Assembly (NCBI GenBank): GCA_030537935.1
Contig: JAUNUY010000001.1
Location: 145,139-209,138, forward strand
Origin: Eubacteriales bacterium
GTDB taxonomy: Bacteria; Bacillota; Clostridia; Lachnospirales; Lachnospiraceae
Length of the DNA: 64,000 nt
Reading direction: 5' to 3'
The notes under the pieces: generated by a model
Told to the model about the DNA's origin: nothing
Seen by the model: the letters and a program-made list of their open reading frames with translations, nothing else
Databases searched by the model: none
Shown: positions 33,949 through 40,960 of the stretch, piece by piece
Position numbering within the stretch: the stretch's first letter is position 1
Layout: each line of letters begins with the position of its first letter
Translations under genes and position numbers: made by a program

Positions 33949-33979
33949 GTTTGTGTCTTGTCGTACCCTGGAGAGATGT

Positions 33980-34663
33980 ATGAAAATTAAGGAACTCTGT
34001 CCGAGCGACAAACCCTATGAAAAATTGGAACGATTGGGCCCGAAAGCCCTGTCGGATAAGGAATTACTTGCCATTTTGATTCGAAGCGGTACGTCCCGTC
34101 AATCGGCACTGCAGATTGCCGAGGCCTTGCTTCTGCACACGGACAGCACGCTGTGCCTGAATCGTTTGCATACCATGACCATGGCCGAGCTGCTGGCGGT
34201 CCCCGGTATAGGTCGTGTCCGTGCCGTTCAAATCAAGGCCTTGGCGGAGCTTTCCATTCGGATGGCGAAACGACATTATCCGGAGCGACCGCTCATGAAC
34301 AGTCCGGAACGAATTGCAGACTATTATATGGAAGAACTGCGTCATCTCGATCATGAAGAATTATGGATGGCCAGCCTGGACATCAAAGGACGTCTGATTC
34401 ACACGGACAGTCTTTTTAAGGGGGCGGTCTCTTCCTGCACCGTATCACCGCGGGAAATATTTTTGACGGCCCTTAATCGACGTGCCGTCAATATCATTCT
34501 CATCCACAATCATCCCAGCGGCAATTGTGAACCCTCGCAGGCGGACATTGCCATTACGAGACGGGTTGCCGACGTCGGTGTAAAACTGGACGTGAGCCTC
34601 TGGGATCACATTATCATCGGGGATCGGGAATACTACAGTTTCAAGGAAAATAATTTATTTTAG
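33980..34663 (+). CDS. radC: RadC/YsxA family JAB-domain protein
   Basis: An N-terminal helix-hairpin-helix region (VPGIGRVRAVQIKAL, near residue 75) precedes a JAB/MPN metalloprotease-like domain with HNHPSGNCEPSQAD near residue 176, the metal-binding signature. The name radC is historical and a repair role is doubtful. It lies directly upstream of mreB in many Bacillota, as here. ATG 33980 follows GGAGAG. The product is 227 residues. Confidence 0.92.
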   Translation: MKIKELCPSDKPYEKLERLGPKALSDKELLAILIRSGTSRQSALQIAEALLLHTDSTLCLNRLHTMTMAELLAVPGIGRVRAVQIKALAELSIRMAKRHYPERPLMNSPERIADYYMEELRHLDHEELWMASLDIKGRLIHTDSLFKGAVSSCTVSPREIFLTALNRRAVNIILIHNHPSGNCEPSQADIAITRRVADVGVKLDVSLWDHIIIGDREYYSFKENNLF

Positions 34664-34671
34664 GTGGTGTC

Positions 34672-35661
34672 ATGAAACGAACGCTCGTCTTTAACTTGAG
34701 CTCATCGGATATTACGATATATGATTTACGGAAGAACAAGGTCATCCGTGAAAAAAATTATCTGGCATATCAGTTGGACTATGACTACTCGTATATCCAA
34801 CTGTTTGATCGACGTCTGTTGACATTCGGTGATGATGCCTACGAATACTTCGAGCGAAATCCGAAAGACGTGGAGGTTGTTCGTAATATCGTCAACGAGA
34901 AAATTGTCAAACCGGAAGAGCAGGCCCTGTTTTTACAGAAAATCATGGAGAAATATGATTTGCTTCGTGGTTTGAGTGCACCGGAAGGTTATCTGCTCAT
35001 ATCCGAGACGACGGATGGATTCAACCGATATAATTATCTGAAGAGCCTCAATCTGAAAAGTCATCGGGTCATCTATATTGAAGATGTACTCCTTTCAATT
35101 CCGGAAATCCGGGCTTCAAAAGGTGCTTTGATTATTTATCCCGGTCATGAGTCATCGTTTATGATGACGGTTGCCGGAGGAGATTGTATCTTTTTAAAGA
35201 AGATTGATTTCAACCTGGAAAAGTTGGATGAGACGGTCTGTCAATACATCAAACATCATTTTAAAGTCATGGTATCATTGAAGACCACCCGTAGGATGCG
35301 TAAGGAGTTGGGTCTCATTAGTGTTTCCGGAGAAGAAATCGTCTTACCGGCCGTTGAAATCGGATCCGGCCTACCGATAGAGATTAAACTCCGGGATACT
35401 TTATTACAGAAGATATACGAGGATTCGATCCTTCAGTTGATTACCGACATCCATTCGATGTTACGTCGGTTACCGATGGAAATGAATCGCAGCGTCCTTG
35501 CTTCGCCCATCTATTTTTGCGGACAGGCGGTAGATGACGCTTCCTTGATGGATATCATTGCCAAACGGTTTCGTACCGACTATCAACTCATCGACTTGGA
35601 CGAGGTGCTGTTGACGGCGGATGCGAAGACCATAGCGGAATGGAGTAAGAAACATGCGTAG
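34672..35661 (+). CDS. divergent MreB-like actin homologue with lost nucleotide motifs
   Basis: It occupies the mreB position before mreC. Several segments align with MreB: FGDDAYEYFERNPKDVEVVR (residues 52-71), HRVIYIEDVLLSIPEIRA (131-148) and DETVCQYIKHHF (186-197). The ATP-binding signatures are gone: phosphate-1 DLGTANT is FNLSSSD, phosphate-2 DIGGGTTE is IYPGHESS, and the adenosine loop GGGALLRG is CGQAVDDA. It is 329 residues, near MreB size, with an intact frame and coupled to mreC. It may be a non-polymerising scaffold or an elongation remnant in a coccoid cell. A PilM- or FtsA-like relative is a less likely alternative. Confidence 0.72.
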   Translation: MKRTLVFNLSSSDITIYDLRKNKVIREKNYLAYQLDYDYSYIQLFDRRLLTFGDDAYEYFERNPKDVEVVRNIVNEKIVKPEEQALFLQKIMEKYDLLRGLSAPEGYLLISETTDGFNRYNYLKSLNLKSHRVIYIEDVLLSIPEIRASKGALIIYPGHESSFMMTVAGGDCIFLKKIDFNLEKLDETVCQYIKHHFKVMVSLKTTRRMRKELGLISVSGEEIVLPAVEIGSGLPIEIKLRDTLLQKIYEDSILQLITDIHSMLRRLPMEMNRSVLASPIYFCGQAVDDASLMDIIAKRFRTDYQLIDLDEVLLTADAKTIAEWSKKHA

Positions 35662-36517
35662 GGGGCATAAGAAAAATCCGAAACATATCGGCATCGGGAA
35701 CAAAAGTCTCCTGATACTGTTGAGTATTTTATGTATCAGTTCCATCCTCTTTTCATTTGTAGCGGGGAAGAATACGGCACCCGTAACGAGAGTGGCCAAT
35801 TACGTACTGTCCCCCATGCAGGAAGGTATGAGTCATCTTGCCACGGGATTGCGGGATCTTTTCTCCGGATTCCGTTCGTCAAAAGCGTTGCAGGAAGAAA
35901 ATACGGCACTGAAAAAGCGTATTGAAGAACTGAATACCGAAAATACAACGTTAGCCGCACAGCGTGCCGAATTGGATCGCCTGCATAAACAGTTGTCCAT
36001 GACGGACGCTTACGGCGATCGGGAGGTTGTCGGAGCCCGTGTCATTGCCAAAGATCCGGGTAACTGGTTCAATATATTCACCATTAACGTAGGGACCAAG
36101 CAGGGCATTGAACCGAATATGAATGTTGTGGCGGATGGTGCCCTGGTCGGAATTGTTACTTCGGTAAGCCCGACATCGTCAACCGTTCGGACGGTCATTG
36201 ATGATTTAAGTGCCGTCAGCGGGGTTGTGCAAGGAAAAGACAATTTACTGATCGTGGAGGGGAACCTGAAAACCATGCGGGAGGGGTATATCCCGGCGAA
36301 GGATATTCACGCGGAAGCCGACATTCGTGTGGGCGACAAGATTGTCACCTCGGCTGTCAGCGAGCGTTTTTTACCGGACATCCTCATTGGTTACGTGACG
36401 GAAGTGAATGCGGACGACGCGTTATTGATTCGGGAAGCAAAGATTGCACCGGTGGTGAATTTCAATACGTTACGTGAGGTTTTGGTTATCAAGGAATTGA
36501 AGCAGACGGGAGAGTAG
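35654..36517 (+). CDS. mreC: cell shape-determining protein MreC
   Basis: It is a membrane-anchored scaffold of the elongation machinery. One N-terminal membrane segment (about residues 17-38) is followed by a coiled coil (about 76-115, SSKALQEENTALKKRIEE) and the beta-rich MreC core with VIAKDPGNWFN near residue 130. The length of 287 residues is normal. It overlaps the MreB-like gene by 8 bases. Confidence 0.93.
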   Translation: MRRGHKKNPKHIGIGNKSLLILLSILCISSILFSFVAGKNTAPVTRVANYVLSPMQEGMSHLATGLRDLFSGFRSSKALQEENTALKKRIEELNTENTTLAAQRAELDRLHKQLSMTDAYGDREVVGARVIAKDPGNWFNIFTINVGTKQGIEPNMNVVADGALVGIVTSVSPTSSTVRTVIDDLSAVSGVVQGKDNLLIVEGNLKTMREGYIPAKDIHAEADIRVGDKIVTSAVSERFLPDILIGYVTEVNADDALLIREAKIAPVVNFNTLREVLVIKELKQTGE

Positions 36518-36518
36518 A

Positions 36519-37064
36519 ATGATACGGAAATTTTTACGCGGCCTGATTCCCGTCATTATTCTGGCCATACTGCTCGTTTTACAATCCAGTTTTTTTAAAT
36601 TATTTACGTTTATACCTACGGGACCGAATTTGCTCATTGTTGTCGTAACAGGGACGGGTTTTATACGCGGTGCCCGAGGCGGGTTGTTAATCGGTTTGGC
36701 CGCCGGACTTTTACTGGATTTGCAATATGGTACGAATTTCGGGTTATATGGTTTGGTGTACATGCATATCGGCTATTTTTCAGGGTTGATGAATCGTATT
36801 TTCGTAAAAGACAACTTGCTGATGTTGATGTCCATGACCGCCGTATCGGACATTGCCTATAATGTCATTATCTATCTGTTTTCATTTCTGTTCCGGCAAC
36901 GATTCAGTTTTTTTAACTACCTGTTTTATACAATGCTCCCGGAAGTACTGTTGACATTATTGGTTACTTTGATTATCTACAAACCGTTATTGAGTTTGAA
37001 CCTGCGGTTGGATGCATCGCGTCTACGTACCGAAACGAAAAAAGGAGAGGACCGTTTTGTTTAG
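36519..37064 (+). CDS. mreD: rod shape-determining protein MreD
   Basis: A 181-residue integral membrane protein with about five or six hydrophobic segments. The family region GARGGLLIGLAAGLLLDL lies near residue 52. It starts 1 base after the mreC stop with GGGAGAG, and its 3' end overlaps the PBP2 gene. Confidence 0.9.
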   Translation: MIRKFLRGLIPVIILAILLVLQSSFFKLFTFIPTGPNLLIVVVTGTGFIRGARGGLLIGLAAGLLLDLQYGTNFGLYGLVYMHIGYFSGLMNRIFVKDNLLMLMSMTAVSDIAYNVIIYLFSFLFRQRFSFFNYLFYTMLPEVLLTLLVTLIIYKPLLSLNLRLDASRLRTETKKGEDRFV

Positions 37065-39825
37065 ACGGATTAAGGAATTCATATTCGACACCATGCAGCC
37101 GCGCTATTTTTTTATGACGGCTTTCATTACCGGCCTGTTTGTTATTTTAATCGGTCGGCTTTTTCTCATTCAAATTTTAAAGGGTGATGAATATTCCGGT
37201 AATCATAAAAAACGGATTGAAAAGGAGATTGTCATCCCCGGCGTTCGCGGTAAAATATTTGACCGAAACGGGAAACTGCTGGCCTATAATAAGATGAGTA
37301 AGTCGCTCGTGGTGGAGAACGTTATCAGCGATAATAATCTGAATGAGAAAGAATATAATGAAACGGTGAATCGAATTGCCATTCAAGTTGTACGGATTCT
37401 CAATCGAAATGCCGAGCAGATGAATCGGAGCGTTCCCATCGTCATCAACAGTACGGGCAATTATGAGTTCAGCGTGTACGACCAAACGCTGTTACAAAAC
37501 TTTTTAAAAAACGCATTTAACAAGCAGGATGTCAACCAATTGACGCCACGTGAAAAAAGTGTCACCGCGGATCAGTTTGTCCGTGCTTTTGCTTTCGGCA
37601 AGGCGGATGAAGAACTGTTGGAAAGCGTTACTTGCTTCCATCTGCCGGAGGATTTGACGCAGGAAGAGGTTCTGCAGGTCCTCAATATCCGCTTCAACAT
37701 GTTCTTGAACCGCTTTCGTAAATATCGCAAGAAAGTTGTAGCTGAGAATCTGAGTGACCGGACCATCGTGGATATTACGGAAAACAAGGCAAATCTTCCG
37801 GGTGTTACGATCGAAGATCGGATGACCCGAATTTATAACGATGCCTATGCCATGTCCAATATCATCGGTTATGTCGGTCCTGCTACCGGAGAGGAGCCGG
37901 ACAGCGATGCGAATGACATGATCGGAAAAATGGGCATCGAAAAGAACTTGAACGATGTATTAAAACCGGAAAACGGTTCGCGAAAGATTTATGTCGACAG
38001 CATCGGTAATGTGATTGAAGAGGGCGATGAAGTCCGCCCGGGTACCGGTGAAGATGTTTATCTGAGTATCGATGCAGACTACCAACGTTACATCTATAAT
38101 CTGTTGGAAGACTTTTTCATCGATTTTTGGCTTAAACACATGACGCCGTCCATGAATATCAAAAAAGATGTCCGTGAGTCGGATACTTATTGGATTTCCG
38201 CCGGTGAAATATACGATTCAATTCTATCGAACGGATTAATCAACCTGCATCGCCTAAGACGGGAGGATGCGACCGAAACCGAACGTAAACTCATGGAGAC
38301 GCTGGATGCCGGTGCAGTTGCGGCTTTGGACGACATGAAGTCCGCCCTTCTTTCGGAAACGCCGATGAAGGATATGGACGAGCAGAAATACGTGTATGTG
38401 AAATATTTCAATAAGGTGATGCGCGAAGAGAAGATTTTGCTGGCGGACGGTATTGATGAATCCGACAAAATTCCTCGACGGTGGCTCGACAACGAAATCA
38501 GTCCGAAGGAATACCTTTATTGGTTAATATCAGAGAATCACATCGACACCAACAGCTTGGAGATGGAAGAAAAGTATTCTTCCACGGAAGAGGTCAGCAA
38601 GCGGGTTATCGACAAGGTCACGGAAATTATTCGTCGACGGACGGATTTTATACCGATTATTTCCAAAAATATGGTTCGAGCCGGCACCTTCAACGGGACG
38701 GAGTTGCTGACCGTTCTCTATGACCAAGGTGTCTTGCCGAAAGATGACATGTATGAACAGTTCAAAGGGGGCGTGGATCCTTATGAATTTCTGCGCGAAC
38801 TGATCAGTTCAAAGCGGCTGACACCCGGTCAATTGGCCGTTGATCCGTTTTCGGCGGCGGTTACGGTGAATGACCCGCACACGGGTAAGGTGCTGGCCAT
38901 GGTTTCGTATCCCGGTTATGACAGCAACAAGATGGGAGACGACAATTACATCACTTATCTCCTCAGTACCGGGTCTACGCCGATGATTAATCGGCCCACG
39001 GGCATGATGAAGGCACCCGGTTCGACGTACAAACCATTGACTGAAATTGCCGCGCTGACGGAAGGAATTATCGGTGCAGGTGACGGAGTCGTTTGTACAG
39101 GACAGTTTGACCGAGTGACGCCGAGTCCGAAATGTTGGGTTTATCCAAATAACCACGGGACCGTCAATGCGGTGACGGGATTGGCCAACTCCTGTAACGT
39201 TTATTTCAACGAGTTGGGTTGGCGCTTCGGTCTGCAAAACGGATACTATAATTCGGAACGCGGATTGGCTCGCATGGCTGAATATGCAAAAATGTTCGGC
39301 CTTGACAGGACAACGGGGTTGGAGATTGACGAAGCAGTGCCTAAAATCTCCGATGATAACGCCATTTTTTCGGCCATCGGTCAGGGTAGCCATCTGTACA
39401 ATATCACCAATCTTAACCGCTATTTCAGTGTCATTGCAAATGGCGGTGACGTACTGGAATTTTCCGTTGTCAACAAAACTGTTGATACTGAAAGCGGTCA
39501 GGAGCATGTCTATGAACCGAAGGAACCGGAACATATTACGCTCGATTCAAACGCTTTGAGCACCGTGCGTCAGGGGCTTATCGAGGTGGTGAAGAAATCA
39601 TATAATGCACCATCCTTCGAGGATGTCGGTGCCGTTGTGGCCGGAAAGACCGGTACGGCGGAAGAGAATCTGGCCCGCAACAATCATAGTCTTTTTGTCG
39701 GCTATGTTCCGGCAGAGGCGCCTGAAATCGTTTCCGGTATTATCTTGCCGAATATTCCGGCATACACCTACCATACGGATTTGAGCGGGAAGATTATGAA
39801 ATATTACATAGAAAACTTACGTTAA
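37057..39825 (+). CDS. mrdA: class B penicillin-binding protein 2 (elongation transpeptidase)
   Basis: It cross-links peptidoglycan with RodA. One membrane anchor (about residues 17-37) precedes the dimerisation domain (GKIFDRNGKLLAYNK) and the transpeptidase with STYK near residue 656, SCN near 712 and KTGTAE near 863. A TTG start at 37057 is chosen because AAAGGAGAGG lies 6 bases before it; no in-frame ATG fits. The protein is 922 residues, well above the usual 600-720, because about 250 mostly charged residues lie between the LSIDADYQ block and the VNDPHTGKVLAMVSYPGYD block. Similar enlarged forms occur in clostridia. Start choice is moderately sure, function very sure. Confidence 0.93.
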   Translation: MFRRIKEFIFDTMQPRYFFMTAFITGLFVILIGRLFLIQILKGDEYSGNHKKRIEKEIVIPGVRGKIFDRNGKLLAYNKMSKSLVVENVISDNNLNEKEYNETVNRIAIQVVRILNRNAEQMNRSVPIVINSTGNYEFSVYDQTLLQNFLKNAFNKQDVNQLTPREKSVTADQFVRAFAFGKADEELLESVTCFHLPEDLTQEEVLQVLNIRFNMFLNRFRKYRKKVVAENLSDRTIVDITENKANLPGVTIEDRMTRIYNDAYAMSNIIGYVGPATGEEPDSDANDMIGKMGIEKNLNDVLKPENGSRKIYVDSIGNVIEEGDEVRPGTGEDVYLSIDADYQRYIYNLLEDFFIDFWLKHMTPSMNIKKDVRESDTYWISAGEIYDSILSNGLINLHRLRREDATETERKLMETLDAGAVAALDDMKSALLSETPMKDMDEQKYVYVKYFNKVMREEKILLADGIDESDKIPRRWLDNEISPKEYLYWLISENHIDTNSLEMEEKYSSTEEVSKRVIDKVTEIIRRRTDFIPIISKNMVRAGTFNGTELLTVLYDQGVLPKDDMYEQFKGGVDPYEFLRELISSKRLTPGQLAVDPFSAAVTVNDPHTGKVLAMVSYPGYDSNKMGDDNYITYLLSTGSTPMINRPTGMMKAPGSTYKPLTEIAALTEGIIGAGDGVVCTGQFDRVTPSPKCWVYPNNHGTVNAVTGLANSCNVYFNELGWRFGLQNGYYNSERGLARMAEYAKMFGLDRTTGLEIDEAVPKISDDNAIFSAIGQGSHLYNITNLNRYFSVIANGGDVLEFSVVNKTVDTESGQEHVYEPKEPEHITLDSNALSTVRQGLIEVVKKSYNAPSFEDVGAVVAGKTGTAEENLARNNHSLFVGYVPAEAPEIVSGIILPNIPAYTYHTDLSGKIMKYYIENLR

Positions 39826-39835
39826 CGGAGGGAAT

Positions 39836-40960
39836 ATGTTTAAGAAATTTCATATACGACAATATAATCTCCGCTTGTTACTTATGGTGACGGTCGCCAT
39901 TGTGTTCGGCATCATCATGGTCAACAGTGCGAACCCTTCGTTTACGAAAAAGAACATTATTGGTGCGACGCTGGCCATATGTGTCATGTTGGCGGTGACC
40001 CTGATTGACTACCGCCGACTGGCCCGATTCTCCTGGTTGTTCTACGTCATGAACTTATTGATATTGCTTCTTGTAAGAATACCCGGGATAGGCTATAATA
40101 TTAACGGAGCGACGCGTTGGATACGTTTTGGCGGAATACAATTTCAGCCTTCGGAGTTTTCCAAAGTTTTTTTGATTATTTTCGTTGCGGCTTATATATC
40201 GGAGCGTGCCAATCGACTGAATACGATACGTACTTTGGGTACATTGGCCTTACTGATGATTCCGCCGCTTGTCTTAATTAAGTCTCAGCCCGACTTGTCT
40301 ACCACACTGATTATCGCTTTCATCATGATTGCGATTGTATTTCTGGGCGGTCTCAGCATGAAGCTTATTGCCATCGTATCCGCCATACTGGTTCCGACAA
40401 CCATCGGCCTGCTTTGGTACATTCGTCAACCCTGGCAGAAACTGCTGCACGGTTGGCAACAACGACGCGTCTTGAGTTTTTTTCGTCCGCAGGATTATCT
40501 TTCAGCGGAGTCTTATCAACAGTTGAATTCCATGCTGGCAATCGGGTCCGGAAAATTATGGGGAAACGGGTTGAACAATGATTTGCCTTCATCCGTAAAG
40601 AATGCTAACTATTTGCCGGAACCGCAGACGGATTTTATTTTCGCCATCATCGGTGAGGATCTCGGGTTTGCGGGAACGGTTTTTACGATTATCATCTTAC
40701 TGATTATCGTTTATCTGCTTTTCGGCATTGCACGACGAACGGAAAGTCTGTTCGGTCGATTGCTTGCCGGCGGCACGGCCTGTTACATCGGCTTACAAAC
40801 CTTTGTCAATATCGGCGTTGTGACTTTATTGCTGCCGAACACCGGATTACCCCTGCCATTTATCAGCTACGGATTAACATCACTTTTCAGTTCATGCATC
40901 CTGATTGGCATTTGTCTGAACATTGATCGGCAAAACCGTTTGAGCTATACCAAGTTCTAA
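39836..40960 (+). CDS. rodA: RodA peptidoglycan glycosyltransferase
   Basis: It is a SEDS-family polymerase that works with PBP2. About ten membrane segments are visible in 374 residues. Conserved blocks are GATRWIRFGGIQFQPSEFSK near residue 90, SQPDLSTT near 149 and the C-terminal LPFISYGLTSL near 341. GGAGGG precedes the ATG. The pairing with the PBP2 gene and mreCD marks the elongation complex. Confidence 0.95.
   Translation: MFKKFHIRQYNLRLLLMVTVAIVFGIIMVNSANPSFTKKNIIGATLAICVMLAVTLIDYRRLARFSWLFYVMNLLILLLVRIPGIGYNINGATRWIRFGGIQFQPSEFSKVFLIIFVAAYISERANRLNTIRTLGTLALLMIPPLVLIKSQPDLSTTLIIAFIMIAIVFLGGLSMKLIAIVSAILVPTTIGLLWYIRQPWQKLLHGWQQRRVLSFFRPQDYLSAESYQQLNSMLAIGSGKLWGNGLNNDLPSSVKNANYLPEPQTDFIFAIIGEDLGFAGTVFTIIILLIIVYLLFGIARRTESLFGRLLAGGTACYIGLQTFVNIGVVTLLLPNTGLPLPFISYGLTSLFSSCILIGICLNIDRQNRLSYTKF

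Follow-up and report, generated by a model that had tools for sequence, protein, structure and literature searches.

A divergent mreC-linked MreB paralog without nucleotide-binding signatures in the elongation operon of a member of the Lachnospiraceae

Introduction

Whether MreB needs ATP for anything beyond filament turnover is debated, and its filaments can form in vitro without nucleotide hydrolysis (PMC10718530, PMC9195046). The residue roles used here are those of ScMreB5 (D12, E134, D156 and T161; PMC9195046). The catalytic motif E...T-X-[D/E] is conserved in 95.8% of MreBs from outside Spiroplasma, and Spiroplasma MreB3, which is without it, still forms filaments and has been proposed as an anchor for other MreBs (PMC9597168). 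The MreB paralogs of B. subtilis copolymerise in vitro (PMC7641798). In the open-licence literature we found no description of a loss of the catalytic glutamate in Lachnospiraceae MreB or of a nucleotide-free MreB; the closest precedent for the gene presented here is Spiroplasma MreB3, which binds AMPPNP.

This gene, designated mreB', lies in a stretch of 64,000 nucleotides of a Eubacteriales bacterium assigned to the Lachnospiraceae (GCA_030537935.1, contig JAUNUY010000001.1, positions 145,139 to 209,138), referred to as the window. It stands immediately upstream of mreC.

Results

mreB' is an intact gene of the elongation operon

The following genes were identified, numbered from the first letter of the window.

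33953..34663, + strand: radC (Pfam RadC), the upstream neighbour, which abuts mreC in relatives without mreB'
34672..35661, + strand: mreB', mreC-linked MreB paralog without nucleotide-binding signatures, 329 amino acids (open reading frame, Pfam, profiles and predicted fold)
35654..36517, + strand: mreC (Pfam), its start overlapping mreB' by 8 nt
36519..37064, + strand: mreD (Pfam)
37012..39825, + strand: PBP2, the elongation transpeptidase (Pfam, NCBIfam)
39836..40960, + strand: rodA (Pfam FtsW/RodA, NCBIfam)

The gene order is radC–X–mreC–mreD–PBP2–rodA with mreB' as X, which is the radC-mreB-mreC-mreD position of an MreB. Translation would begin at an ATG located 9 nt downstream of radC and preceded by a Shine-Dalgarno-like AGGTGG, and this site together with the 8-nt mreC overlap holds mreB' in the operon. 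Codon usage and coding score equal those of the neighbouring genes, and the frame is open over 329 codons, an event whose chance is about 7e-7 given the positional base frequencies of the gene itself. A local frameshift artefact was rejected, the other frames being devoid of MreB similarity and the codon usage being neighbour-like. The preliminary description of this locus, made from the letters alone, had reported an intact gene coupled to mreC and followed by normal mreC, mreD, PBP2 and rodA; the open frame and the overlap with the mreC start confirm the former, and the Pfam matches the latter.

The PBP2 open reading frame (37012-39825) encodes 937 amino acids, which is long for PBP2, with about 280 residues separating the Pfam dimerisation and transpeptidase matches. 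Its annotated start overlaps mreD by 53 nt and a later start is possible. For RodZ, considered as a possible partner, only weak and partial HTH_25 matches were recovered, in the host and in its relatives.

mreB' belongs to the MreB/Mbl family

By descent and by fold, the mreB' product is a member of the MreB/Mbl family. It matched Pfam MreB_Mbl with 64.2 bits (gathering cut-off 27), and no other Pfam family was recovered at E≤0.001. The NCBIfam MreB cut-offs were not reached (NF010539, 52.0 vs 293 bits; TIGR00904, 35.3 vs 365.75 bits), nor was that of MreBH (54.6 vs 515 bits); typical mreB' products of the family, such as L006 and L083, pass the NF010539 cut-off and the divergent L005 falls short of it. 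An AlphaFold2 model based on a 44-sequence alignment reached a pLDDT of 87.7 and a pTM of 0.81 and retained the two-domain architecture, although it indicates compatibility with the MreB fold and is not independent proof of it, since the alignment held MreB homologs that favour this fold. A Foldseek search of the PDB returned MreB or Mbl as all 25 top matches (E about 1e-20), MamK coming next (1e-15). A better match to another actin-like family, named in the preliminary description as a finding that would overturn it, was rejected, here with regard to FtsA, ParM, MamK and Hsp70, on the grounds that MreB_Mbl is the sole Pfam family and that MreB/Mbl are the 25 best PDB folds.

The nucleotide site of mreB' is degenerate

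The segments of mreB' that align with the functional motifs of MreB are as follows.

34687..34725, + strand: degenerate phosphate-1 segment VFNLSSSDITIYD (canonical GIDLGT...), with Asp12→Asn and Gly14→Ser, from alignments
34849..34869, + strand: FERNPKD, with Arg at the position of the intra-protofilament Lys57 of ScMreB5, from alignment (residue role, PMC9195046)
35071..35109, + strand: degenerate connect-1 segment IYIEDVLLSIPEI, the catalytic Glu134 column falling in a 4-residue gap (role, PMC9195046, PMC9597168)
35128..35172, + strand: degenerate phosphate-2 segment LIIYPGHESSFMMTV (canonical VDxGGGTTEVAV), with Asp156→Tyr, from alignments
35281..35313, + strand: degenerate adenosine segment KTTRRMRKELG (canonical TAExIKxxIG), from alignments
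35356..35391, + strand: retained domain II segment EIGSGLPIEIKL, whose GLP Gly and Pro are shared with all, or almost all, orthologs
35461..35487, + strand: LRRLPMEMN, a retained segment of domain IIA that includes the PPEL-motif Glu, from alignment
35509..35538, + strand: degenerate adenosine glycine segment IYFCGQAVDD (canonical IYLTGGGS), from alignments

GIDLGT is replaced by VFNLSSS, DxGGGTT by YPGHESS, the connect-1 EEP helix by IED-VLL with the 4-residue gap, the adenosine TAExIK by TTRRMRK and LTGGG by FCGQA. At the level of single residues, Thr161 has become Ser, the adenosine Glu has become Arg, the GG pair reads GQ and the catalytic Glu134 is deleted or shifted. The signatures of a functional MreB, namely phosphate-1 D-x-G, phosphate-2 D-x-G-G-G-T and the adenosine E and GG, thus read N and S, Y-P-G-H-E-S, R and GQ, respectively, and in the catalytic motif a gap stands in the Glu column and S-S-F in place of T-X-[D/E]. 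The loss of ATP motifs first noticed at 34672-35661 is therefore borne out by the alignments for phosphate-1, phosphate-2, adenosine and the connect-1 Glu, all replaced or gapped, and with Pfam and the predicted fold they agree with the initial view of an actin-fold MreB relative whose ATP signatures are replaced. The assignment of the LRRLPMEMN Glu to SpeMreB3 E285, which makes the IIA-IIB' contact (PMC9597168), comes from inspection of the alignment and assumes a 3-residue tag in the chain numbering.

We discarded the alternative that only the ATP site has decayed, since conservation has dropped over the whole protein: mreB' keeps 2 of 8 conserved nucleotide columns vs 18 of 55 other conserved columns, of which the next most divergent relative keeps 35.

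Not every letter of the cleft has changed. The first Gly of phosphate-2 and the first Gly of the adenosine pair survive, and two swaps are conservative (Ser for Thr161 and Arg for Lys). These residues, along with the two-domain architecture of the model, would suit a cleft that accommodates another small molecule, or nucleotide in a divergent manner, mreB' then being a ligand-gated regulator of elongation. We regard this reading as improbable: replacement has affected the aspartates for Mg and phosphate, the glycine of phosphate-1 and the adenosine GG that every relative has, and no particular ligand is indicated.

A canonical MreB is encoded in the same genome

The host assembly is a 1.37 Mb draft of 42 contigs, 85% complete with 0.28% contamination, and is small for the family. 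It contains, at G000:C37:144005-144973, an ordinary MreB scoring 430.7 bits to MreB_Mbl, in which the motifs GIDLGTT, IEEP, VDVGGGTTD, TAEQIK and SGGG are intact, flanked by recD2-like and XTPase-like genes (names from sequence reading). Because of this second copy, the cell is not losing MreB and mreB' is a paralog. A search for a second, normal mreB, suggested in the preliminary description, thus succeeded, and the idea that the window gene fills the only MreB position of the cell was abandoned.

The same result bears on whether mreB' is a stage in the loss of MreB towards an MreB-free, coccoid elongation system. A degenerate copy at the mreBCD position of an otherwise normal operon would fit such a transition, but the presence of a canonical MreB with all its motifs largely refutes it, unless the C37 contig is foreign. 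Moreover, 38 of the 40 sampled relatives have a canonical-type MreB, whether mreB' is present or absent, the other two (G175 and G189) being incomplete. We consider this explanation highly implausible.

At E≤1e-40, loci L035 (G175) and L127 (G189) provided the only MreB of their incomplete genomes, mreC-linked and devoid of the catalytic Glu; assembly gaps, or genomes without canonical MreB, are both possible.

mreB' is an ortholog of the mreC-linked MreB of the Lachnospiraceae

Where relatives carry an MreB-like gene at this position, radC and mreC flank it in nearly all cases, and mreB' is identified by profile scores and phylogeny as an ortholog of the mreC-linked MreB paralog found across Lachnospiraceae. 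Against profiles from which it had been left out, mreB' scored 109.2 bits with the family mreB' (108 orthologs), 53 bits with the mreC-linked MreBs of the order and 33.0 bits with the canonical ones. In a tree of 97 MreBs, a branch with an SH-aLRT of 99 parts the family mreB' and the window copy from all canonical and order-level sequences; the end branch of the window copy measures about 7 changes per site, and its exact place within the clade is unsure, with the usual caveat on long branches. Identity to the mreB' products of relatives is only 15-23%, and no close homolog of the protein was found in the GTDB contigs. Named records with the orthologous gene belong to Lachnospiraceae (Kineothrix, Eisenbergiella, Acetatifactor and others). 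The set searched covers more than 330 genera of this family; the host is the sole member of its genus there, and no relative searched has a PheT more than about 59% identical to that of the host.

Motif loss looks stepwise across the family

The columns of the nucleotide site were compared among 19 canonical MreBs, 36 mreC-linked copies of the order and 108 family mreB'. This last sample is not random, many of its members being best matches to the window copy and 14 coming from genomes where no such match was recovered. Every sequence of the three groups has D12 and G14 (19/19, 36/36 and 108/108), which are Asn and Ser in the window copy. Likewise, the adenosine GG is invariant in the 19, 36 and 108 sequences and has become GQ in the window copy. 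Given these counts, the window copy has changed beyond what ordinary divergence produces. Of the canonical MreBs 18 of 19 retain the catalytic Glu, as do 31 of 36 order copies; 104 of 108 family mreB' have Lys or Arg there, and the window copy has a gap in this column. D156 has become Asn in 57 of the 108 and Tyr in the window copy. The five order copies with Lys at the catalytic site come from three other families (f4, f21 and f22) and branch beside the family mreB'. Finally, all 80 copies examined from named Lachnospiraceae (L232-L311) carry Lys in place of the catalytic Glu and an unchanged phosphate-1 D-x-G. The replacement of the catalytic Glu by Lys or Arg, often with Asn at Asp156, is a feature of essentially the whole family (loci L005-L170 and the named L232-L311), shared by f4, f21 and f22, and extends beyond the window gene.

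From these alignments, the decay looks stepwise. The catalytic glutamate went first, no later than the family ancestor and in an ancestor shared by several families; further phosphate-2 changes followed within the family, and the binding residues then disappeared from the window lineage, the only one among those sampled. The family copies have lost the catalytic Glu yet keep the binding residues, and the window copy stands at the end of this series.

The gene itself is often missing. Family genomes with mreC but without a match to the window copy at 1e-8 number 69, and in 55 of them mreC is not preceded by an MreB gene. RadC could be recognised in 53 of the 55, with a radC–mreC gap of 6-93 nt where both were read and a single exception of 374 nt. 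On a weakly supported RadC tree, the fewest changes in presence number 15, and well-supported branches require at least 4 of these. In family f22 of the same order, 4 of 6 sampled loci have no mreB'. Clean absence between radC and mreC was seen at many loci (L105-L169; L218-L221 and L223 in f22), apparently through several losses. Because it is repeatedly missing at this position, mreB' is dispensable in many lineages. The stage proposed in the preliminary description stands in part: relatives do display an earlier one, with the Glu lost and the ATP-binding residues kept, and a later one, with the gene deleted, but the path does not lead towards MreB-free elongation, canonical MreB being present.

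These absences feed the main rival to a role of mreB' as adaptor or copolymer, namely that the window copy is a nearly decayed paralog, almost functionless, doing nothing important and shortly to be deleted. In its favour are the at least 55 sampled genomes in which radC lies directly beside mreC, the 15 state changes of the RadC tree, a divergence that covers the entire protein, and a genome that is small for the family (1.37 Mb at 85% completeness). Against it, stop codons would be expected in a neutral frame at a divergence of about 7 changes per site, and the frame, start, Shine-Dalgarno-like site, mreC overlap and codon usage are all intact, with a fold predicted at high confidence. The decay may nevertheless be recent, if most of the divergence built up under earlier selection. 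We judge this rival unlikely.

Discussion

An intact and normally coded frame after such extreme divergence argues that the window copy still works. Most likely it would serve the canonical MreB–MreCD machine as an adaptor or copolymer subunit that does not depend on ATP, and we lean, by a modest degree, to a nucleotide-free subunit carried on canonical MreB and tied to MreC/MreD/RodA-PBP2. The paralog lost its catalytic glutamate and then, in this lineage, the nucleotide-holding residues, while the frame stayed intact and, by prediction, the MreB fold was kept. The protein would no longer bind or hydrolyse ATP nor cycle between filament and monomer on its own. Using the contacts of domain II, which are better preserved, it would attach to filaments of canonical MreB or insert into them and link them to MreC/MreD/RodA-PBP2, with ATP-driven polymerisation supplied by canonical MreB. 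The half of the protein that sequence comparison can still align to solved MreBs is domain II (residues 146-287), which carries the IIA-IIB' protofilament contact; the PPEL-motif Glu and the Arg at the Lys57 position remain. Precedents for such a role are the filaments formed without nucleotide hydrolysis in vitro (PMC10718530, PMC9195046), the anchoring proposed for Spiroplasma MreB3 (PMC9597168) and the copolymerisation of B. subtilis MreB paralogs (PMC7641798). The scaffold role without ATP-driven polymerisation suggested in the preliminary description is thus plausible.

Two considerations weigh against a refined scaffold. The degeneration is global, which fits general relaxation equally well, and mreB' has been deleted repeatedly in relatives, so that it may be almost dispensable. 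Overall, mreB' looks like an actin being converted to a passive helper or discarded.

At the level of the family, the data predict that the mreC-linked MreB of essentially all members is ATPase-dead and partnered with an active MreB. A broader proposal, that Lachnospiraceae elongation runs on such a pair, one ATPase-active and one ATPase-dead and mreC-linked, the window copy having become an obligate structural subunit free of nucleotide, is put forward tentatively. If true, this subunit would be a bacterial counterpart of actin-related proteins or pseudo-enzymes and would reveal nucleotide-independent functions of MreB. An MreB devoid of a nucleotide site, in a normal mreCD-PBP2-rodA operon and alongside a normal MreB, offers a natural case of separation of function, and the family provides a series in which the catalytic Glu is lost, Asp156 is lost in half, the binding site is lost once and the gene is deleted many times. 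Cultured Kineothrix and Eisenbergiella are hosts in which to ask what an ATPase-dead MreB does.

Among known systems, the mreB' genes of Kineothrix alysoides KNHs209 (L284) and Eisenbergiella porci (L236) share operon position, length and profile with the window copy, and are also without the catalytic Glu, with Lys in its place; unlike it, they retain Asp12, Gly14, the phosphate-2 core and the adenosine GG. Canonical MreB, including the copy on C37, shares the fold (TM 0.76-0.83 to our model for C. crescentus, T. maritima and G. stearothermophilus), the domain II motifs and the operon with mreC and mreD, but has the ATP signatures that mreB' has lost; mreB' also scores far below the NCBIfam MreB cut-offs (52 vs 293 bits). 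Bacillus Mbl and MreBH are likewise paralogs that coexist with MreB and copolymerise in vitro (PMC7641798), although the NCBIfam MreBH profile gives mreB' 54.6 bits only. Spiroplasma MreB3 (SpeMreB3, PDB 7e1c/7e1g) is, like mreB', a paralog without E...T-X-[D/E] found beside ATPase-active MreBs (PMC9597168), and is among the closest folds to our model. It differs from mreB' by its genomic context and its wall-less host, and it was solved with bound AMPPNP, whereas mreB' is also without the binding residues.
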